From Polycladidibacter stylochi (GTDB lineage Bacteria; Pseudomonadota; Alphaproteobacteria; Rhizobiales; Stappiaceae): a DNA stretch of 64,000 nucleotides. Shown here one piece after another: positions 20,226 through 31,201 of the stretch. The first letter of the stretch is position 1; the number at the start of each line of letters is the position of its first letter. The stretch lies in NCBI RefSeq assembly GCF_001562055.1, contig NZ_LLWE01000018.1, positions 310,001 through 374,000 on the forward strand, written 5' to 3'. Both the position numbers and the translations under genes were made by a program. The notes below the pieces were generated by a model, which saw only the letters and a list, made by a program, of their open reading frames with translations, was not told the origin of the DNA and ran no database searches.

Positions 20226-21461
20226 CTAAGGGCGATGTTCGCCTTCTCCCTTGCCAATTCGCATTACATTTATGCCATGTGCTTCCAGATCCTTGATGAT
20301 TTGCTCGGCATGTTCTGCGCCACGTGTCTCAATTGTTACGTCCAATGTTGCCCCTTTCGCGGGCACATCTAAAAACATCCGTTGATGCGAAACCTCCAAA
20401 ATATTACCACCCAACTTACCGATAATGTTGGAAATATCGGCCAATAGACCAGGCCGGTCAGGGATTATGCAGCGGATTGACATAATATTGCCGGAACGGA
20501 TGAGTTCTCGCAGCATGATGGAGGTCAGTAAACGCGGGTCAATATTGCCACCGCAGACCACCAGCCCAACAGTTTTACCGGCAAAGCGCTCGGGTTGGGA
20601 CATCATGGCTGCAAGGCCCGCAGCTCCTGCACCTTCTGCCACTGTTTTTTGCAGGGTGAGGTAAGTGTTGATGGCTTTTTCAATTGCGGTTTCACTTACC
20701 AAAATGATGTCGTCAACAGTGTCTTTTGCGACTTGGCGGGTGAGGGTGCCGACTTCTTTAACGGCGATGCCTTCGGCAAGGGTGGTTCCACCCGCTGGTC
20801 GGTGATCTTGTTGTACCACGTTCCACATGGAAGGGTAGAGCTCGGCCTCGACGCCTATAATTTCGATTGTCGGCTTGATTGCTTTGGCCGCAGTTGCCAT
20901 GCCAGCAATCATACCGCCACCGCCAATGGGTATAATCAGCGTGTCGAGCTGTGGCACTTCTTCAAGCATTTCAATGGCGATGGTGCCTTGCCCTGCCATT
21001 ACCCACGGATCATCAAAGGGGTGGACCCATGTGTAACCATGCAGGTTAGACAGCCTATTGGCTTCTTCACGCGCATCGTCAACAGTTTCGCCAGCGAGCA
21101 CCACCGAAGCGCCAAAAGCGCTGGTGGCCGCAACCTTAACATGCGGGGTATCACAGGGCATGACAATGGTGGCTGGTATGCCAAGGCGAGTGGCATGTAG
21201 GGCAACCGCCTGCGCATGATTACCTGCTGACATGGCAATGACACCACGCTTGCGTTCTTCATCGGTGAGCGCAAGCAGTTTGTTTAAGGCACCGCGCTCT
21301 TTAAACGCGCCGGTGGCCTGCATGTTTTCGTATTTTACATAGATGGAAGCATCGAGAAGCGCACTTAAGCGTGCGCTTTTTATGAAGGGGGTATGTTCGA
21401 CCTGGCCTTTTAGCTGGGTATGAGCGTTTTTGATGTGTTGGTAGGTGATGATTTTAGTCAT
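20226..21461 (-). CDS. ilvA: Threonine ammonia-lyase with ACT domain
   Basis: A 411-residue PLP enzyme that converts threonine to 2-oxobutanoate and ammonia, the first step toward isoleucine or a catabolic route. The PLP lysine is in ATGAFKERGALNK (about residues 52-64), the phosphate loop is IPIGGGGMIAG, and the cofactor-ring region is LVVCGGNID. A single ACT-like regulatory domain fills about residues 330-405 (IRCIIPDRPGLLADISNIIG). The length and single ACT domain match the short TdcB/IlvA form rather than the 500-residue biosynthetic IlvA, so catabolic versus biosynthetic use is undecided. It lies 28 bases after hemB. Confidence 0.9.
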   Translation of the reverse strand: MTKIITYQHIKNAHTQLKGQVEHTPFIKSARLSALLDASIYVKYENMQATGAFKERGALNKLLALTDEERKRGVIAMSAGNHAQAVALHATRLGIPATIVMPCDTPHVKVAATSAFGASVVLAGETVDDAREEANRLSNLHGYTWVHPFDDPWVMAGQGTIAIEMLEEVPQLDTLIIPIGGGGMIAGMATAAKAIKPTIEIIGVEAELYPSMWNVVQQDHRPAGGTTLAEGIAVKEVGTLTRQVAKDTVDDIILVSETAIEKAINTYLTLQKTVAEGAGAAGLAAMMSQPERFAGKTVGLVVCGGNIDPRLLTSIMLRELIRSGNIMSIRCIIPDRPGLLADISNIIGKLGGNILEVSHQRMFLDVPAKGATLDVTIETRGAEHAEQIIKDLEAHGINVMRIGKGEGEHRP

Positions 21462-21489
21462 GTTTGTTTACGCTACCCAGCTTTTGGGG

Positions 21490-22880
<1,391 letters not shown>

Positions 22881-24020
22881 GTGTTGGATTTATATCTAAG
22901 TGAAGAACAACGTGCATTTGTGGAAATGGCAACGAGCTTTTCCAAGGACCAGTTAGAGCCTTTTGCGGCTCAATGGGATGAAATGTCAACTTTTCCGGTT
23001 GAGACATTGAAGGAGGCTGCAGGCTTGGGTCTTGCCGGCCTATATGCTTCAAGCGATTTTGGTGGCTCGGAGCTCGGGCGCTTGGACGGCGTGTTGTTGT
23101 TTGAGGCTTTATCGCAAGGATGTACATCGACGGCAGCGTTTTTATCCATTCACAATATGGTGGCTGGGATGTTGGAAAAGTTTGCCAGCGATGCGTTGAA
23201 GGGGCGCTTCCTGCCAGATATTTGTCGTATGGAGAAAGTTGCCAGCTATTGTTTGACCGAGCCAAACTCTGGGTCTGATGCTGCTTCGCTCCGCACCAAA
23301 GCGGTACGTGATGGTGATCATTATATACTCAATGGCTCCAAGGCCTTTATTTCTGGTGGTGGTGTTTCGGATATTTATGTTTGTATGGTGCGCACGGGCG
23401 GAGGGGGGCCCCAGGGGATTTCCTGCCTCGTTGTTGAGAAGGGAAGTGAAGGGTTAAGTTTTGGCGCGAATGAGCACAAAATGGGCTGGCGTTCACAACC
23501 AACTGCACAAGTGAATTTTGAGAATTGTCGCGTTCCTGTTGCTAACCTCGTTGGTGAGGAGGGGCAAGGCTTTAAAATCGCCATGGCTGGCCTTGATGGT
23601 GGGCGTTTGAATATTGGTGCCTGCTCGATTGGCGCAGCACAAGCATGTTTGGACCGTGCTTTGGTGTATATGGATGAGCGGCAACAATTTGGGCGCAAGC
23701 TCTCGCAGTTCCAGGCGCTGCAATTCAAAGTGGCTGATATGGCGACTGAGCTAGAGGCTGCGCGTCAGCTGCTTTATAAGGCTGCTTTTTTGTTGGACCA
23801 GAAAGACCCGGAAGCAACGAAATTTGCTGCCATGGCCAAACGTTTTGCCACTGATACCGGCTTTAAAGTGGTGAATGAGGCACTGCAAATACACGGAGGT
23901 TATGGATACTTGAAAGACTACCCGCTTGAGCGGTATTTGCGCGATGTGCGCGTGCATCAGATTCTTGAAGGAACCAATGAAATAATGCGGTTAATCATCT
24001 CACGCGAGTTAATGAATTGA
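22881..24020 (+). CDS. Acyl-CoA dehydrogenase, isobutyryl-CoA type
   Basis: A 379-residue FAD flavoenzyme. The signatures are YCLTEPNSGSDAASL, QFGRKLSQFQALQFKVADM and LQIHGGYGYLKDYPLERYLRDV; the catalytic base is the Glu in ILEGTNEIMRLI, placed as in short/branched-chain enzymes. The two neighbours downstream (3-hydroxyisobutyryl-CoA hydrolase and 3-hydroxyisobutyrate dehydrogenase) point to isobutyryl-CoA to methacrylyl-CoA in valine breakdown. The start is GTG at 22881 or TTG at 22884; GGAG at 22873-22876 fits either. Function is inferred from context; the family assignment is solid. Confidence 0.9.
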   Translation: MLDLYLSEEQRAFVEMATSFSKDQLEPFAAQWDEMSTFPVETLKEAAGLGLAGLYASSDFGGSELGRLDGVLLFEALSQGCTSTAAFLSIHNMVAGMLEKFASDALKGRFLPDICRMEKVASYCLTEPNSGSDAASLRTKAVRDGDHYILNGSKAFISGGGVSDIYVCMVRTGGGGPQGISCLVVEKGSEGLSFGANEHKMGWRSQPTAQVNFENCRVPVANLVGEEGQGFKIAMAGLDGGRLNIGACSIGAAQACLDRALVYMDERQQFGRKLSQFQALQFKVADMATELEAARQLLYKAAFLLDQKDPEATKFAAMAKRFATDTGFKVVNEALQIHGGYGYLKDYPLERYLRDVRVHQILEGTNEIMRLIISRELMN

Positions 24021-24091: not shown

Positions 24092-25183
24092 ATGGGTATT
24101 GGTGAAGACAGTCATGTTTTGTCTGAGGTGCGCGGTCACGCTGGTGTGATTACTCTGAACAGAGTTAAAGCGCTCAATGCTCTTTCATCTGATATGGTTT
24201 GCAAGATTACGGATGTTTTATTGGCATGGCGTGAAAATCCTGTAATCAAGCATGTTGTTATAAAAAGTTCGAGTGAAAAAGCGTTTTGTGCTGGAGGAGA
24301 TATTCGCCAGCTTTATGATGATGGGCCGGAAAAAGCTGCAGACAGTATTCGCTTTTTTGCAAGTGAATACCGACTAAACCATTTAATGGGCACGTTCGAG
24401 AAGCCTATTGTTGCATTGATCGATGGTATTTTCATGGGTGGCGGCGTTGGTATCTCTGTCCATGGTCGTTATCGTGTTGGTAGTGAGCGTTTGTTGTTCT
24501 CGATGCCAGAAACCGCAATTGGCTTCTTTCCAGATGTTGGCGGCAGCTACTTCTTGCCGCGCCTGCCTTCCAAAATTGGCTATTATTGCGGTTTGACCGC
24601 TGGGCGGATGCGACTTGGTGATTGCTATGAGGCTGGTTTGGTAACGCACAAGATCAGTTCGCAAAATTTCGAGGCTCTTTTGAATGCCCTGTGCGAAAAT
24701 GAGGATGTGGCAAGGGTGCTTGATGATTATCACGATGTGGAGTTGGGCAGTGTTGGAGCGGTTTGGCAGCAGCGCGAAAAAATTGAAAACTGGTTTTCTG
24801 CCCAAAGTTTGCCACAGGCTCTTGAACTGATTCAGATTGATTGTGATGCCGGGGATGAATTTGCACAAAAAACAATTGATGAGTTGCAATTGCGCTCACC
24901 TACCAGCTTGCTGGTAACTTTTGAGCAAATCAAACGCGGCAAAGAGCTTTCTTTGCAAGAGTGCCTGGCAATGGAATACGGCATGGTTTGGCAGGTTCTC
25001 CAATCCCATGATTTTTATGAGGGTATACGGGCTGTGCTCGTAGATAAGGACCAAAAGCCAAAGTGGCAACCAGCAACGTTCGCAGGTGTGACGCGTGAAC
25101 TCGTTGAAAAGTATTTCAGCGAAAATGACCAGAAGAAGATTGACTTCTATTCGAGTTATGCGGGTTCCCCTCTTCCCCAGTAA
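24092..25183 (+). CDS. 3-hydroxyisobutyryl-CoA hydrolase (enoyl-CoA hydratase family)
   Basis: A 363-residue crotonase-fold protein. It has the oxyanion motif AFCAGGDIRQLYDDG (about residues 67-81), FMGGGVGISVHGRYRV, and the HIBCH-specific SMPETAIGFFPDVGGSYFL with catalytic Glu and Asp. The long C-terminal extension after residue 270 is normal for HIBCH and absent from simple enoyl-CoA hydratases. It releases CoA from 3-hydroxyisobutyryl-CoA in valine catabolism. The gene follows the acyl-CoA dehydrogenase by 71 bases, probably in one transcript. Confidence 0.9.
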   Translation: MGIGEDSHVLSEVRGHAGVITLNRVKALNALSSDMVCKITDVLLAWRENPVIKHVVIKSSSEKAFCAGGDIRQLYDDGPEKAADSIRFFASEYRLNHLMGTFEKPIVALIDGIFMGGGVGISVHGRYRVGSERLLFSMPETAIGFFPDVGGSYFLPRLPSKIGYYCGLTAGRMRLGDCYEAGLVTHKISSQNFEALLNALCENEDVARVLDDYHDVELGSVGAVWQQREKIENWFSAQSLPQALELIQIDCDAGDEFAQKTIDELQLRSPTSLLVTFEQIKRGKELSLQECLAMEYGMVWQVLQSHDFYEGIRAVLVDKDQKPKWQPATFAGVTRELVEKYFSENDQKKIDFYSSYAGSPLPQ

Positions 25184-25561
25184 GGCATACGCCGTGAGGT
25201 TATGTTGAATTTGCAAGACAATTGGTAGCTTTAGCGATAAGGCGGCGGTGCATTGCGTTTTTTGCACATGCCGCTTTACCCGCCTTTACTGCATGGCTTT
25301 TAGAGCTCTATGTAAAAGCTTAGAAGTATTTTAAATGCTAATCGTTGCTCTTGCAGGTTTTTCCGATTAGCTGTCATCGTTTTCCTGACTTGCTTGATGT
25401 TGCTTTTGGCATTTGAACCACTGTTGATTGTGGAGTTAGGGCGTTGAGCACTTGCGCGTTTGCGACAAGTGTTTAGTAACAGTGATAGACTTTTTTACAC
25501 ACTAATTGATCTGACTACCCTACTAGGGATTTGTGCTAGTAGAACTTACCGGAGATTACCC
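25184..25561. other. Gap between the HIBCH and DUF6163 genes
   Basis: 378 bases without a convincing gene. The frame that continues upstream of the DUF6163 start (25460-25561) is rejected because the SD-supported ATG lies at 25562. An imperfect GC-rich inverted repeat near 25241-25275 could end the upstream transcript, but it is bulged and not convincing. Confidence 0.4.
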
Positions 25562-25969
25562 ATGATGATGAATGCAGCTAATGAATTGACAGAGCGAGGC
25601 CGTATTTGTCAACGCTGGATGCATGGGTACTTACGGGTCATGTCTGTTATTGTTATGTTTATGGGGCTTTACTACTGGATGCAGATAGTTGGTGTTATCA
25701 ACTATAATGGCTTCAGTTTTATTGAATTGTCGATGCCCCTTAAAACAACGATCATATGTTTTGCTGTGCTCGACCTTGTTGTTTCTACAGGACTATGGTT
25801 GCTGACAAGCTGGGGAGCTGCCATGTGGCTGTTTCGTTCGCTTGCCCAGGTTGTCATGCATACTGTGCTTTCATCGGTCTATGGTCGCAGCATGATTGAA
25901 GTGATATTCTACATGAGTGCAATCGCGATTTATCTCGTCCTGCTTTACCTTGCTGAACGTGAGGGATAG
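25562..25969 (+). CDS. DUF6163 family membrane protein
   Basis: 135 residues from the ATG at 25562, chosen because GGAG lies 7 bases before it; an upstream start at 25460 would add 34 residues unlike a membrane-protein N-terminus. Four hydrophobic segments are visible: about residues 18-40, 50-72, 78-97 and 108-128, with short polar ends. I recognise it as the small membrane protein often found next to ldtR in Hyphomicrobiales; no activity is known. Here mmsB stands between it and ldtR. Confidence 0.75.
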   Translation: MMMNAANELTERGRICQRWMHGYLRVMSVIVMFMGLYYWMQIVGVINYNGFSFIELSMPLKTTIICFAVLDLVVSTGLWLLTSWGAAMWLFRSLAQVVMHTVLSSVYGRSMIEVIFYMSAIAIYLVLLYLAEREG

Positions 25970-26095
25970 GACAGCTTGCCTTGTTCCTTTTGTTTTAAAG
26001 TCTATTGATCGACAAGTTTCACGCGAGGCTTGTGCGTTAGTAATGTACGTTGAAAGACGTGCTTCTAACGTTTGATCTCATTATGGGAGGAAGTT

Positions 26096-27010
26096 ATGGG
26101 CACGCAAACGAAGAAAATTTGTTTCATTGGTCTTGGCAATATGGGACTGCCAATGGCCCAAAATTTATTAAAAGCCGGTCATAGCGTAACGGGTTATGAT
26201 TTAAGCGAGGAGGCTAGGTCGCAGTTTATGCAAGCTGGTGGTGGTATAGCTGATAGTGTTGGTGCTGCTTTAAATGGTGCCGATACTGTGGTTACTATGC
26301 TACCTAAAGGCGAGCATGTGAAAAATATCTATTTAGGTGAGAATGGTGTTTTAAGTTCTGTTGATTCGGGCAGTTTATTGATTGATTCTTCAACCATTGA
26401 TGTGGCAACAAGCCGGTATGTGGCAGATAAAGCCAATGCCGCTGGCATGAAAATGGTGGATGCTCCGGTTTCGGGGGGCGTGGTAGGCGCAACTCAAGGA
26501 ACCTTGACATTTATGGTTGGAGGAGAGGACGAGAATTACCGCCTTGCACTTCCACTATTGGAGGTAATGGGTAAGTCTATTGTGCATGCCGGTAAAGCTG
26601 GTGCTGGACAGGCGGCGAAAATATGTAACAATATGCTTCTTGGTATATCGATGGTCGGTACATGCGAAGCTTTTGTGCTTGCTGATAAACTGGGTTTGGC
26701 TGCGGATAAGTTATTTGAGGTTGCCTCAACGTCCTCTGGGCAGTGTTGGTCTTTAACCTCTTATTGTCCTGTACCGGGCCTTGTGCCTTCTTCACCCGCC
26801 AATAATGACTATAAACCAGGGTTTGCTGCGGCTATGATGTTAAAGGATCTGCTGCTTGCAAATGAAGCAGCCGAGCAATGTCAAGCGGTGAACCATATGG
26901 GCCAAAGAGCCAGCGAACTTTATAAGGAATTCTGTAAAGAGGGAGGGGAGACCCTTGACTTTTCCGGTATAATGCAGTTTTTGCTCAACCAAAGGTTAGT
27001 AGAGGTTTAA
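26096..27010 (+). CDS. mmsB: 3-hydroxyisobutyrate dehydrogenase
   Basis: A 304-residue NAD-dependent beta-hydroxyacid dehydrogenase. It has a Rossmann start CFIGLGNMGLPMAQNLLKAGH, the substrate-binding signature DAPVSGGVVGATQGTLTFMVGG and the catalytic lysine in GAGQAAKICNNMLLG. It oxidises 3-hydroxyisobutyrate to methylmalonate semialdehyde, the step after the hydrolase encoded at 24092. GGGAGG five bases before the ATG at 26096 fixes the start against an earlier frame opening at 26072. No mmsA is seen in the window. Confidence 0.93.
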   Translation: MGTQTKKICFIGLGNMGLPMAQNLLKAGHSVTGYDLSEEARSQFMQAGGGIADSVGAALNGADTVVTMLPKGEHVKNIYLGENGVLSSVDSGSLLIDSSTIDVATSRYVADKANAAGMKMVDAPVSGGVVGATQGTLTFMVGGEDENYRLALPLLEVMGKSIVHAGKAGAGQAAKICNNMLLGISMVGTCEAFVLADKLGLAADKLFEVASTSSGQCWSLTSYCPVPGLVPSSPANNDYKPGFAAAMMLKDLLLANEAAEQCQAVNHMGQRASELYKEFCKEGGETLDFSGIMQFLLNQRLVEV

Positions 27011-27155
27011 CGGGTAAGCACAAAGGTATCTCATTGCATTTAGAGAAAATTAACAATGTCTCTTAAGTGCTTTTTAGCAGCAGTGAGATAAATTTGCCTC
27101 AACTGCGGAATAAAAATAGCCATTGCAAAACGACATGGACATGAGGCGCAACCAG

Positions 27156-27668
27156 ATGAATAACACGAACAGGGCAGTCGAGGTTCTGGCGCAAGATGAA
27201 GAGAGCGCAGGTCTTAAGGCTTCTTACTTGGAAGCTTTAACGTTGATCGAGCGACTTCATCGGCGTTTGCTTGACGTCATTAAAGATGAATTTGACCGGA
27301 TGGGTCGGTCTGATGTGAACAGTGTTCAAGCACTTTTACTGTTCAACATCGGCGATGCGGAACTGACAGCAGGTGAGCTTCGTACACGTGGTTACTATTT
27401 AGGTTCCAATGTTTCTTATAATCTTAAGAAACTGGTAGAAACCGGATATATCAATCATGAACGTTCTCAGATGGACCGTCGTTCCGTTCGTGTGAGTTTG
27501 ACCGAAAAAGGTCGCGAAATTGCGCAGATTGTTGACGAACTTTATGGACGTCATATTTTGTCTGTTGAGCAGGTTGGCGAACTTGGTGCTGAGCATCTTC
27601 AGGAGCTAAATCGCTCTCTTAGACGTCTAGAGCGTTTCTGGACTGATCAGATTCTCTATCGCCTCTAA
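27156..27668 (+). CDS. ldtR: MarR-family transcriptional regulator LdtR
   Basis: A winged-helix regulator of about 170 residues. The HTH region runs from LLLFNIGDAELTAGELRTRGYYLGSNVSYNLKKLVETGYI and the wing is MDRRSVRVSLTEKGREI; the helical ends make the dimer. It closely resembles LdtR of Liberibacter/Sinorhizobium, which controls the L,D-transpeptidase gene ldtP and osmotic tolerance, and ldtP is the next gene here. The start is uncertain: ATG 27156 (GAGG 9 bases upstream), ATG 27135/27141 or TTG 27123. A clean terminator follows, so ldtP has its own promoter. Confidence 0.85.
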   Translation: MNNTNRAVEVLAQDEESAGLKASYLEALTLIERLHRRLLDVIKDEFDRMGRSDVNSVQALLLFNIGDAELTAGELRTRGYYLGSNVSYNLKKLVETGYINHERSQMDRRSVRVSLTEKGREIAQIVDELYGRHILSVEQVGELGAEHLQELNRSLRRLERFWTDQILYRL

Positions 27669-27680
27669 GTCGTTAGATAT

Positions 27681-27706
27681 AAGGGTGCTCTAGGGCACCC
27701 TTTTTT
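27681..27706 (+). terminator. Intrinsic terminator after ldtR
   Basis: An 8-bp stem, AAGGGTGC (27681-27688) with GCACCCTT (27695-27702), a 6-base loop and a run of T through 27706. It begins 12 bases after the ldtR stop codon. Confidence 0.9.
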
Positions 27707-27973
27707 ATTGTAAAATTTGTTCTAATGCTTGCTTCTATGAAGAATTGTTATTGAGTTTTTTAAGAATATAGAGCTTTGCTTTGGATTGTTGTTGGTTTTT
27801 GCGCAAATTCATGTATGACCATTAAACAGCCATAATCGAATGGATTAACCTAAATTTCACAGTTGGCACGGTTTTACACTTTTCGAGGTGTGATGCTTGT
27901 ATCTCTCATTTCCTTGAGGGTTACAAAATTGCGAAACGCTGCAAGAGGGCAGTGACGATACTAGGAGATATTG
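27707..27973 (+). promoter_or_regulatory. ldtP upstream region
   Basis: 267 bases between the ldtR terminator and ldtP. The ldtP promoter must lie here. An interrupted inverted repeat ACAC-8-GTGT at about 27874-27889 is a possible regulator site; by analogy with Liberibacter the expected regulator is LdtR. AGGAG (27963-27967) is the ribosome-binding site of ldtP. Confidence 0.35.
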
Positions 27974-29392
27974 GTGGGTAAATTTGCATGGAATTTGAAG
28001 TACAGGGCTTTAACTGCCGCAATTTTTGCCCCTGTATTTGCTTTTGGTGTTCAAAGTAGCTTTGCGCAGGTTAAGCTGACAACCAGCAATGAGTACCAAC
28101 AAGGGCAAGCCAGGCAGCCTATTAACCCTAATGCCACTCTACCCTCAGGGTATGTATCTCCCTCAATGCCGATTAATCACGATAATCCCCTTAGCGCGAA
28201 TGCTGGTGCTGAAATGGCGTTGCAAGGTGCGTTCGTTGAAGGTGCTGAATGGGAAGATGGTTTCGATAGCTCTGCGATAACGCTTGGCAGTTATGATCGA
28301 ACAACGCCTTTTATTAGCTCTGATAGTATACCGGCGATGGGCAGGGCTATTGCTAAGTACGAGCGTATCGTTGCTTCAGGTGGTTGGCAGCGCGTGCCGC
28401 AAGTCACAAAGTCTTTGCGTGTTGGTATGAGCCATGACACTGTCAAAGCGCTGCGGCAAAGACTTATGGTCTCTGGTGACTTGGCTGCAGGTGCGCCCAT
28501 TACAAGTATATTTGACAGTTATGTCGATGGTGCAGTTCGCCGCTTTCAGTTACGTTATGGGCTGGTGGCAGACGGAGTTGTGGGCAAGAGTACGATTGAA
28601 GCGATGAATGTGCCAGCAACTTTTCGACTTAACCAGCTGCGTGTGAACTTGCCGCGAATACAAGAGTTGCAGGCGAAGCTTGAAAATAAGTATGTGATGG
28701 TAAATATTCCAGCCGCACGTACCGAGGTTGTCGAAAATGGTCATGTTCATTCTAGACACACAGCCGTTGTTGGTAAAAAAGATAGGCAAACGCCGATACT
28801 GGATAGTGCAATTTTCGAGGTGAATTTTAATCCGTACTGGACAGTACCGTTGAGTATTATCCGTAGGGATTTGATACCACGTATGCAAAAGGATCCAACA
28901 TATCTTGCAAAAAACCGAATTCGGATTTTTGATTGGCATGGCAAAGAATTGCAGTGGCAAGATATTGACTGGACGACCGACGAGGCAACCCAATACCGCT
29001 TTACGCAAGAACCTGGTGATGGCAATTCCCTCGGGCATGTGCGGATAAATTTCCATAATACGCATCAAGTGTATTTACATGATACTCCTGAGCAATCTTT
29101 ATTCGGTAGTGGGTACCGGTTCCACTCTTCAGGGTGTGTGCGGGTGCAGAACGTACGCGAATTCGTATCTTGGTTGACAGCAACAACAACCAAGGATTGG
29201 AGTCGTTCACGGGTGGATGCCACTATTCGCAGTGGTGAGCGTCTTGATGTTAAGTTGAAGACGCGTATTCCCTTGCACATGGTTTATGTGACAGCTTGGT
29301 CGCATGGTGATGGTCTGGTGCGTTTCCGGGATGATATTTATGGTCGTGATGGTGCATTCGCATCTCCGGTAGCTGGTGGCCAGCTCCAGTGA
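27974..29392 (+). CDS. ldtP: L,D-transpeptidase LdtP
   Basis: A 472-residue periplasmic peptidoglycan cross-linking enzyme. The signal peptide covers about residues 1-31 (Ala-rich, ending SSFA-Q), a peptidoglycan-binding-1 domain runs from VTKSLRVGMSHDTVKALRQRL to VADGVVGKSTIEAM, and the YkuD catalytic domain follows. The nucleophile is Cys388 in FHSSGCVRVQN. Of the TTG at 27971 and the GTG at 27974, the GTG sits 6 bases after AGGAG and is preferred. Its stop overlaps the next gene by four bases (GTGA). Confidence 0.93.
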   Translation: MGKFAWNLKYRALTAAIFAPVFAFGVQSSFAQVKLTTSNEYQQGQARQPINPNATLPSGYVSPSMPINHDNPLSANAGAEMALQGAFVEGAEWEDGFDSSAITLGSYDRTTPFISSDSIPAMGRAIAKYERIVASGGWQRVPQVTKSLRVGMSHDTVKALRQRLMVSGDLAAGAPITSIFDSYVDGAVRRFQLRYGLVADGVVGKSTIEAMNVPATFRLNQLRVNLPRIQELQAKLENKYVMVNIPAARTEVVENGHVHSRHTAVVGKKDRQTPILDSAIFEVNFNPYWTVPLSIIRRDLIPRMQKDPTYLAKNRIRIFDWHGKELQWQDIDWTTDEATQYRFTQEPGDGNSLGHVRINFHNTHQVYLHDTPEQSLFGSGYRFHSSGCVRVQNVREFVSWLTATTTKDWSRSRVDATIRSGERLDVKLKTRIPLHMVYVTAWSHGDGLVRFRDDIYGRDGAFASPVAGGQLQ

Positions 29393-29574
29393 GCCCATCA
29401 CAAACCAGGGAAGTTTTCTTTGAGGTGCGCCAATATGGGGCGCTCCTCAAGGTTAGTGCAATTTGCTCACAAAGTGGCACTGAGGTTTTTGTGAGTGGAC
29501 CAAAATCGGCGTCCTTAGCCTATTTGAAGAACTTGGCATACAATAAGCTACTATTGGAATTAAAGGCGCGGTGA
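29389..29574 (+). CDS. Small conserved-type protein, DUF6898-like
   Basis: A 61-residue protein whose GTG start overlaps the ldtP stop (GTGA), so translation is probably coupled. The sequence FFEVRQYGALLKVSAICSQSGTEVFVSGPKSASLAYLKNLAYNKL reads as two or three beta strands followed by a helix. It resembles the short alphaproteobacterial DUF6898 proteins as I remember them; function unknown. It has no signal peptide or membrane helix, so it should be cytosolic, although its partner gene encodes a periplasmic enzyme. Confidence 0.65.
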   Translation: MSPSQTREVFFEVRQYGALLKVSAICSQSGTEVFVSGPKSASLAYLKNLAYNKLLLELKAR

Positions 29575-29887
29575 GTCTTTGGGATTTGCGTGAATACTCT
29601 TATATCGTTTTGGTTAACTTCTTTTAAAATAAGCTGATTTTGCTGCTTTGAGCGTTTTTGCAAATATCGACGATTGTTGAGATAAATTTCGCTGTGCATA
29701 GAATTGGCAATTAGTCTTATTTGTTGCTCTTGTGCGTCTGTAAGCACTTGTTTCAGCATTATATAGCTTGGGTTTATCTTTCGCTTATGTTAATTGCAAT
29801 TGCTCTTGGTTGATCGCTGTTGCCAGATTGTATTGCCTCAATGATTGCAAACACAATCGGCACAGATAATTATAATGAGGCCCGCCT
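29575..29887. other. Gap before glyA
   Basis: 313 bases that should hold the glyA promoter. I recognise no riboswitch. A minus-strand reading frame of 79 codons (29759-29520) begins here without a ribosome-binding site and runs into the upstream gene; I do not accept it as a gene. Confidence 0.4.
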
Positions 29888-31201
29888 ATGACTGTTACGG
29901 ATAGCACTCGTGTGTCCCCTCTCTACCCCGACTTTTTTAGTGGCTCACTTGCCGAAGGTGATCCTGATATCCTTCAGGCCATTAATAGTGAGCTTTCGCG
30001 TCAACAAAATGAAATCGAGTTGATTGCGTCGGAAAACATTGTATCGCGCGCTGTTTTAGAAGCGCAGGGCTCGGTTTTAACGAACAAGTATGCTGAGGGT
30101 TATCCTGGACGCCGCTACTATGGTGGCTGTGAATACGTTGATGTGGTTGAAAACCTTGCTATTGAGCGGGCAAAGAAGCTGTTTGATTGTGGGTTTGCGA
30201 ATGTGCAGCCAAATTCTGGTTCGCAAGCAAACCAGTCGGTGCTGATGGCTCTGGCAAAACCCGGGGATACAATTTTAGGCATGAGCTTGGATGCGGGTGG
30301 TCACCTGACACATGGTGCCAAGCCAAATCTATCCGGTAAATGGTTTAATGCGGTTCAATACGGTATTGATACGGATACCGGATATATTGATATGGAAGAT
30401 GTGGCAAAGCTAGCCCGCGAGCATCAACCGAAAATAATTGTTGCAGGCGGCTCGGCATATTCACGTCGGATCGACTTTGCTGCATTTCGAAAAGTGGCTG
30501 ATGAAGTTGGGGCATATTTGTGGGTTGATATGGCTCACTTTGCCGGACTTGTTGCCGGTGGTGCACACCCAAGCCCGTTTCCTCATGCGCATGTAGCGAC
30601 TTCGACCACACACAAAACATTGCGTGGCCCTCGTGGCGGGCTTGTTTTGACCAATGACGAAGCTATTGCGAAGAAAATTAATTCCGCAATCTTCCCAGGT
30701 CTGCAAGGTGGACCTTTGATGCATGTGATTGCTGCCAAGGCAGTTGCTTTTGGTGAAGCTCTGCGCCCCGAGTTTAAAACCTATGCTGAGACCGTTATCA
30801 AAAATGCACAGGTTCTTGCTGAGGTTCTAGTTGAAGGTGGTGCCGACATTGTTTCCGGTGGTACAGATACACACTTGTTACTTGTTGATTTGCGCCCAAT
30901 GAACTTAACAGGTAAAGCTGCTGAGAAAGCACTCGGCCGGGCGAATATAACCTGTAATAAAAATGGTGTGCCGTTAGACCCGCAAAAGCCAACGATTACC
31001 TCTGGCATACGTCTTGGAACACCTGCAGGCACGACACGCGGATTTGGACCTGAAGAGTTCCGTGAAGTTGGTCGCTTAATTACAGAAGTTCTCGAAGGTC
31101 TGCGTAAATCCAACAGCGAAGAAGGTGATGCAGCTGTGGAGGCAGCCGTTAAGGAGAAGGTCTTGAAATTAACAGCTCGCTTCCCGATCTATGAAGGCTA
31201 A
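29888..31201 (+). CDS. glyA: Serine hydroxymethyltransferase
   Basis: A 437-residue PLP enzyme that interconverts serine and glycine with tetrahydrofolate, the main one-carbon source. It has the conserved N-terminal [29 protein letters not shown], and the PLP lysine Lys243 in [14 protein letters not shown]. The length is slightly above that of E. coli GlyA, with a short Ala/Glu-rich C-terminal end. The following nrdR-ribD-ribE-ribH-nusB order is common in alphaproteobacteria. A hairpin follows 9 bases after the stop. Confidence 0.97.

Follow-up and report, generated by a model that had tools for sequence, protein, structure and literature searches.

Genes of the locus and the LdtR–LdtP pair

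We analysed a 64,000-nucleotide stretch of Polycladidibacter stylochi DNA (assembly GCF_001562055.1, contig NZ_LLWE01000018.1, positions 310,001 to 374,000 of the forward strand; class Alphaproteobacteria, order Rhizobiales), referred to here as the window. It carries a locus in which ldtR, encoding a MarR-family regulator, and ldtP, encoding an L,D-transpeptidase, lie between a block of valine-breakdown genes and a 61-codon open reading frame (ORF) of the Pfam family DUF6898. The features of the locus, in window coordinates and with profile scores, were as follows.

21493..22671, minus strand: hemB, 5-aminolevulinate dehydratase (Pfam ALAD, 456 bits; open frame, stop to stop)
22881..24020, plus strand: acyl-CoA dehydrogenase, probably isobutyryl-CoA dehydrogenase (NCBIfam acyl-CoA dehydrogenase models, none above cut-off)
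24092..25183, plus strand: HIBCH, 3-hydroxyisobutyryl-CoA hydrolase (NF004127, 392 bits, cut-off 274; PF16113, 401 bits)
25562..25969, plus strand: DUF6163, helical membrane protein between HIBCH and mmsB (PF19660, 49.1 bits, cut-off 27)
26096..27010, plus strand: mmsB, 3-hydroxyisobutyrate dehydrogenase (TIGR01692 HIBADH, 407 bits; equivalog cut-off of 291.6 passed)
27123..27668, plus strand: ldtR, MarR-family regulator (NF047395, 283.3 bits; equivalog cut-off of 250 passed)
27681..27702, plus strand: terminator-like hairpin with a T tail 3' of ldtR (9-pair stem)
27820..27836, plus strand: conserved block in the ldtR–ldtP spacer, candidate LdtR operator
27971..29392, plus strand: ldtP, L,D-transpeptidase with a peptidoglycan-binding domain (YkuD, 81.6 bits; PG_binding_1, 47 bits)
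29389..29574, plus strand: DUF6898 protein, 61 residues, GTG start (PF21839, 63.1 bits, cut-off 27)
29888..31201, plus strand: glyA, serine hydroxymethyltransferase (PF00464, 564 bits)

A first-pass annotation had grouped DUF6163, ldtR, ldtP and the 61-codon ORF into a cell-wall/osmotolerance module, with mmsB lying among them, and family scans confirmed all five on the plus strand at the positions it gave. The DUF6898 ORF is a genuine gene rather than a fortuitous reading frame, because it matches PF21839 at more than twice the cut-off; the family is already known to Pfam, with its function unassigned. The valine genes are divergent from hemB, and the isobutyryl-CoA substrate of the acyl-CoA dehydrogenase is suggested by the neighbouring genes.

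With moderate confidence, we read the locus as an ordinary LdtR–LdtP pair in an old, class-wide neighbourhood, in which DUF6898 is a passenger and not a wall-specific partner. The neighbourhood runs, in order, from a divergent hemB through acyl-CoA dehydrogenase, HIBCH, mmsB, ldtR, ldtP, DUF6898 and glyA to nrdR and ribD. By analogy with Liberibacter and Sinorhizobium (PMC3999280), LdtR would activate ldtP from the spacer. DUF6898 would have come to stand behind ldtP once hemA quit the locus, with the ldtP link limited to the order, and would be translated off the ldtP messenger as a passenger, probably via reinitiation at the GTGA where its start meets the ldtP stop. What deserves testing is that LdtR and DUF6898 recur in a setting of valine, haem and glycine genes.

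The identity of the pair was clear from the scans. The second-best NCBIfam model for LdtR was FabT, at 40.4 bits and below its cut-off of 200; the listed LdtR start is a TTG, an ATG at 27135, 27141 or 27156 being possible, and the NF047395 match begins at residue 20. LdtP scored above the cut-offs for both YkuD (PF03734) and the peptidoglycan-binding domain (PF01471), and reached 221 bits against PRK10594, below the cut-off of 425. Reading of the protein revealed YRFHSSGCVRV, which we take to be the SxGC-type cysteine motif of YkuD L,D-transpeptidases. Its N-terminus, LVGKFAWNLKYRALTAAIFAPVFAFGVQSSFAQV, reads as a signal peptide by eye, not by computation, and a hydropathy scan (19-residue window, threshold 1.6) marked no segment in LdtP.

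LdtR has been reported to activate ldtP in Liberibacter and Sinorhizobium (PMC3999280), and a wide LdtR regulon has been described in Liberibacter (PMC5481520). The window shares with the LdtR–LdtP systems known from 'Candidatus Liberibacter asiaticus' and Sinorhizobium meliloti (PMC3999280) an LdtR equivalog followed by a same-strand ldtP with its own spacer. A divergent hemB upstream is shared as well, directly upstream in Liberibacter and beyond the valine genes in the window. The window differs in having valine genes and DUF6163 between hemB and ldtR, and DUF6898 between ldtP and glyA.

A hairpin with a T run was seen by eye 3' of ldtR in all 12 genus loci. Between 22500 and 33500, terminator-like sites numbered 16 against 13.1 in shuffled sequence and promoter-like sites 11 against 14.2; as these counts are near the shuffled expectation, the ldtR terminator is argued from its place and its recurrence in the genus. 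This recurrent hairpin at 27681–27702 suggests that ldtP and DUF6898 probably form a transcription unit separate from that of ldtR. Further into the spacer, the block at 27820–27836 recurred, allowing one mismatch, in the spacers of all 12 genus loci and nowhere else in those 16-kb stretches, the pattern having been derived from the same 12 sequences; at up to two mismatches it had four matches in the whole window against 1.48 expected. It resembles the Liberibacter LdtR site (PMC3999280) in its place upstream of ldtP, but its letters give no clear match, and it is thus only a candidate LdtR operator.

The benzbromarone pocket of LdtR (PMC4658428) was mapped via the paired tyrosines, with T43 often isoleucine. 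Among 70 order and 61 class sequences, R37, N65, L61 and Y82 were invariant or nearly so, T43 was I, V or L, and F64, Y81 and Y131 varied more, Y131 being mostly F outside the order. A pocket shared in this way would be compatible with a shared ligand. Against solved structures, LdtR matched only distant MarR proteins (best E 5.6e-6).

In genome scans, LdtR was detected at E<=1e-3 in 190 of 199 order genomes (153 above the equivalog cut-off), 122 of 190 class genomes (13 above, some of these from the order) and 8 of 14 control genomes (none above); the control matches imply that these counts include other MarR proteins.

Valine genes and DUF6163 upstream of ldtR

Neighbourhoods were compared in several sets of loci. 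The order set with DUF6898 comprised 61 loci: the window, 11 genus mates and 49 order genomes drawn, mostly from the better-scoring, out of the 99 others with a match. To these were added loci around ldtR from 20 order genomes without DUF6898, loci around DUF6898 from the 40 best-scoring of 86 other class genomes, and ldtR-centred loci from 40 further class genomes, taken from the better-scoring ldtR matches still uncovered. Such sampling favours better-scoring matches, so weak homologues are under-sampled. Gene labels were assigned with profiles made from sequences of the window and its relatives, and genes outside these 14 families carry no label. Valine genes upstream of ldtR were counted within 5 kb, and the nearest labelled upstream gene of DUF6898 within 700 nucleotides (nt); ldtP and DUF6898 were called adjacent when less than 450 nt separated the ldtP stop from the DUF6898 domain.

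The window has the three genes of known valine-breakdown blocks (acyl-CoA dehydrogenase, HIBCH, mmsB) in the same order, followed by ldtR, and differs from them by DUF6163 between HIBCH and mmsB. All 12 genus loci, counting the window, showed the arrangement HIBCH–DUF6163–mmsB–ldtR; so did 21 of the 39 remaining order loci in which DUF6898 and ldtR both occur. Outside the order, ldtR was held by 61 of the 80 loci examined, with HIBCH–mmsB–ldtR in 26, mmsB–ldtR in one and HIBCH–ldtR in eight; a valine gene (HIBCH and/or mmsB) thus lay within 5 kb upstream in 35 of 61, 27 of them with mmsB, while DUF6163 was present in none of the 61. In a second count, restricted to the 58 loci whose upstream sequence was long enough, mmsB was no more than 300 nt from ldtR in 20. 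Of the ldtR-centred class loci, 39 extended 1.5 kb or more upstream; 27 of these had valine genes, 26 a divergent hemB and none a downstream ldtP.

The first-pass annotation had taken mmsB to be embedded in the LdtR module. Its position between DUF6163 and ldtR stands, but the embedding does not, since upstream valine genes recur outside the order and DUF6163 does not; mmsB–ldtR looks like the older adjacency, and DUF6163 seems to have come in later, between HIBCH and mmsB. We therefore rejected mmsB as an insertion on the gene arrangement outside the order. Direct DUF6163–ldtR adjacency in Rhizobium, Mesorhizobium and Brucella loci would be compatible with loss of mmsB. DUF6163 was found in 105 of 199 order genomes, 93 above the cut-off, and in the 87 that could be read on one contig its gap to the best ldtR was at most 700 nt in 54, 1055–1622 nt in 29 and otherwise in four; in the window, mmsB separates the two. 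The window member matches PF19660 over residues 22–129. Its AlphaFold2 (AF2) model is a helical membrane bundle with a predicted local distance difference test (pLDDT) score of 96.6, and the hydropathy scan marked three segments. A structure search gave TMEM35A as the top row (Z 9.7, 10% identity), below the level of note for helical bundles, and Foldseek returned no significant match (best E 1.3). A literature search found no paper on DUF6163 and none linking ldtR with hydroxyisobutyrate.

On a tree of 117 LdtR rows, built by a quick method that left 49 of 110 inner branches weak, DUF6163 required three changes, ldtP seven and valine linkage 25. The last figure would mean repeated loss or, less likely, repeated gain; given these changes and the weak branches, an ancestral linkage is argued from distribution and not proven. 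The same neighbourhood raises another reading of LdtR, possible but doubtful in our view, in which its older task was in valine or branched acyl-CoA metabolism, ldtR ending the valine block, and ldtP joined the regulon later. Consistent with such a task are the ldtR-centred class loci, with valine genes upstream in 27 of 39 and ldtP downstream in none, the pocket residues R37, L61, N65 and Y82 (as mapped), which vary little or not at all either within the order or beyond it, and FabT as the runner-up model, albeit below its cut-off. Adjacency, however, is not regulation, none of the 12 genus loci has the spacer block upstream of the valine genes, and the regulon reported in Liberibacter is wide (PMC5481520).

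DUF6898 beside ldtP and hemA

DUF6898 was found in 100 of 199 order genomes and 87 of 190 class genomes, and in none of 14 control genomes in each scan; in a phylum sample it occurred in 14 of 299 genomes, all 14 inside the class, and again in 0 of 14 controls. It was single-copy in the order and class scans except in genome G290, which had two matches on different contigs. The window protein matches the profile near full length (positions 2–53 of 56), and is among the lowest scorers of the order sample, reaching 62 bits in the genome scan where the highest score was 95. The first-pass annotation had named conservation of this sequence as a check, and the family is indeed widespread. In the class sample, with LdtR counted at E<=1e-20 (101 genomes), 62 genomes had both DUF6898 and LdtR, 25 DUF6898 only, 39 LdtR only and 64 neither, a co-occurrence exceeding chance (Fisher p 5e-6, kinship uncorrected).

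As first annotated, the gene starts within the ldtP stop codon: its GTG at 29389–29391 overlaps the TGA at 29390–29392, and this GTG is the only start codon found 5' of the DUF6898 domain in its frame. Conservation of the overlap, the other check that had been named, was not found. ldtP was adjacent to DUF6898 in 49 of the 61 order loci, farther away in six and absent in six. In the 49 pairs, the DUF6898 start closest to the ldtP stop fell between -3 and +218 nt of it; only two of these pairs (the window and L128), and one of 12 in the genus, had the 4-nt overlap, and in the other 11 genus loci the candidate starts lie 38 to 168 nt past the ldtP stop. Of 30 named DUF6898 loci, 26 have ldtP adjacent, and at least four of these repeat loci of the first set (L191, L192, L200, L216); L208 and L241 carry a 4-nt overlap candidate, and L210 and L211 another overlapping or abutting start. 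The GTGA overlap therefore recurs in scattered lineages and is not conserved.

The nearest labelled gene upstream of DUF6898 in the 61 order loci was ldtP in 49, a pyridoxal phosphate (PLP) enzyme of the hemA family in eight and none in four; downstream, glyA was the nearest labelled gene within 1500 nt in 52. In the 40 class loci outside the order the upstream gene was of the hemA family in 13, a reverse-strand acyl-CoA dehydrogenase in ten, ldtR in three, a reverse-strand hemB in one and ldtP in no case, with no labelled gene in the remaining 13. Eight further DUF6898 loci from the ldtR-centred set gave hemA family in three, ldtR in two and none in three. Conversely, ldtP was kept in 18 of the 20 order loci chosen for lacking DUF6898.

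These counts bear on the proposal of the first-pass annotation that the 61-residue protein, translationally coupled through GTGA, is a cytosolic partner or regulator of LdtP or of wall synthesis. The proposal gains from how often ldtP is the closest labelled gene upstream: in 49 of 61 loci within the order, and in 23 of 25 named DUF6898 loci (known repeats removed; L216 repeats L140). It loses from the absence of ldtP beside DUF6898 in all 40 loci outside the order, from the loci that keep ldtP without DUF6898, from the overlap in just 2 of 49 pairs, and from the cellular setting: LdtP reads as exported and DUF6898 looks cytosolic. The absence of a signal peptide noted at first was borne out by reading and by the hydropathy scan, in which the peak was 0.93. 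We consider the partnership very unlikely, and a wall role as the leading reading was rejected, as it rests on an adjacency limited in our samples to one order. Of the module as first drawn, the LdtR–LdtP locus with DUF6163 is upheld by the family scans, and the tie of DUF6898 to LdtP is not.

The hemA neighbours were also examined. One member of the PLP-enzyme cluster is HemA, 5-aminolevulinate synthase (648 bits, cut-off 338.55), the others being named by clustering. By an independent TIGR01821 scan (above cut-off in one of 14 control genomes, Caulobacter), 20 of the 87 class genomes with DUF6898 have hemA no more than 500 nt upstream of it. Six loci have the order ldtP–hemA–DUF6898, two inside the order (L111, L122) and four outside (L071, L073, L078, L152); loss of hemA from such an arrangement would explain the present ldtP–DUF6898 adjacency. 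DUF6898 seems an older neighbour of hemA than of ldtP, and the simplest account of these gene orders would be a departure of hemA from this interval across most of the order. The window genome has its hemA on another contig (G000:C6:21090-22289, the window being on C23). In L147 and L250 the order is ldtP–DUF6898–hemA family–glyA, DUF6898 standing ahead of hemA, as if swapped or as if hemA had moved.

DUF6898 might be an accessory to, or a feedback regulator of, HemA or the supply of 5-aminolevulinate, binding HemA, its messenger or a tetrapyrrole and keeping this role after hemA moved, a tentative idea that we judge rather unlikely. The pair does hold without LdtR, as 6 of the 20 hemA–DUF6898 genomes lack LdtR at E<=1e-20, and 9 of 24 hemA–DUF6898 pairs have a candidate DUF6898 start that overlaps the stop of hemA, four of them by 4 nt. 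The restriction of the family to the class in the phylum sample, hemB at the opposite end of the locus, and glyA, which supplies glycine, point the same way. On the other side, no hemA above cut-off was found in 15 of the 87 DUF6898 genomes, 71 of 143 genomes with hemA above cut-off lack DUF6898, 67 of 87 genomes have no hemA within 500 nt, that of the window genome is on another contig, and neither the structure nor the sequence of DUF6898 showed any sign of binding haem or a ligand.

The AF2 model of DUF6898 (pLDDT 91.8, predicted template modelling score 0.76) suggests that it is probably a small soluble beta-beta-beta-alpha protein. The top rows of a structure search were Rv1738 (Z 7.2, root-mean-square deviation 1.8, 60 aligned) and the double-stranded RNA-binding domain (dsRBD) of RNase III (Z 6.4, 1.8, 53 aligned), with several HPF/protein Y rows at Z 5.2–5.3; every Z was below 8, and the likeness may reflect only a common arrangement. 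These rows would fit a small RNA- or ribosome-binding protein with a dsRBD/HPF-like core. Foldseek, however, found no significant match (best E 0.061), and the helix-start lysines that dsRBDs usually carry were not seen in DUF6898 alignments, so we hold such a function to be highly doubtful. The DUF6898 profile gave seven weak rows against solved structures (best E 0.065, several HPr-like), and a literature search found no paper on DUF6898.

Weighing the class-wide neighbourhood

Several observations weigh against the passenger reading and the antiquity of its neighbourhood. LdtR homologues outside the order fall mostly below the equivalog cut-off, neither HIBCH nor mmsB lies upstream in 26 of 61 ldtR loci there, and valine linkage takes its 25 changes on a tree with many weak branches. 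The departure of hemA is an inferred direction of change. Inside the order, ldtP is the nearest labelled upstream gene in the 49 of 61 loci already given, and spacing is often short, with the nearest start at most 40 nt from the ldtP stop in 16 of 49 pairs; this strong link and short spacing could mean a newer functional tie between ldtP and DUF6898.

A bolder combination, which we regard as quite improbable, makes DUF6898 an overlooked HemA regulator or partner and LdtR an old valine or acyl-CoA sensor recruited in the order to switch on LdtP. If true, haem and branched-chain metabolism would be linked to wall crosslinking through LdtR and LdtP, and hemB, valine breakdown, ldtR, hemA, DUF6898 and glyA would unite the sources of the two substrates that 5-aminolevulinate synthase uses, glycine made by GlyA and succinyl-CoA derived from valine. 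The class-wide neighbourhood offers candidates, namely valine or acyl-CoA intermediates as the LdtR ligand and HemA for DUF6898, and it cautions against a cell-wall role for DUF6898 drawn from its place behind ldtP.

Other genes also recur around DUF6898. Outside the order, a Ros/MucR-family regulator is convergent downstream of it, before glyA or rpiB, in L071, L072, L073, L078, L152, L155 and L163, and is the nearest labelled downstream gene in 10 of the 40 class loci; in the class loci L081, L088, L159 and L168, DUF6898 adjoins branched-chain amino-acid ATP-binding cassette transporter genes (families F17 and F30). No tRNA gene was found in the window, and a plasmid search with 25400–29700 (near mode) gave no match. 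Beyond hemB, at 20229–21467 on the minus strand, lies a PLP enzyme with an ACT domain, presumably of the threonine dehydratase type.

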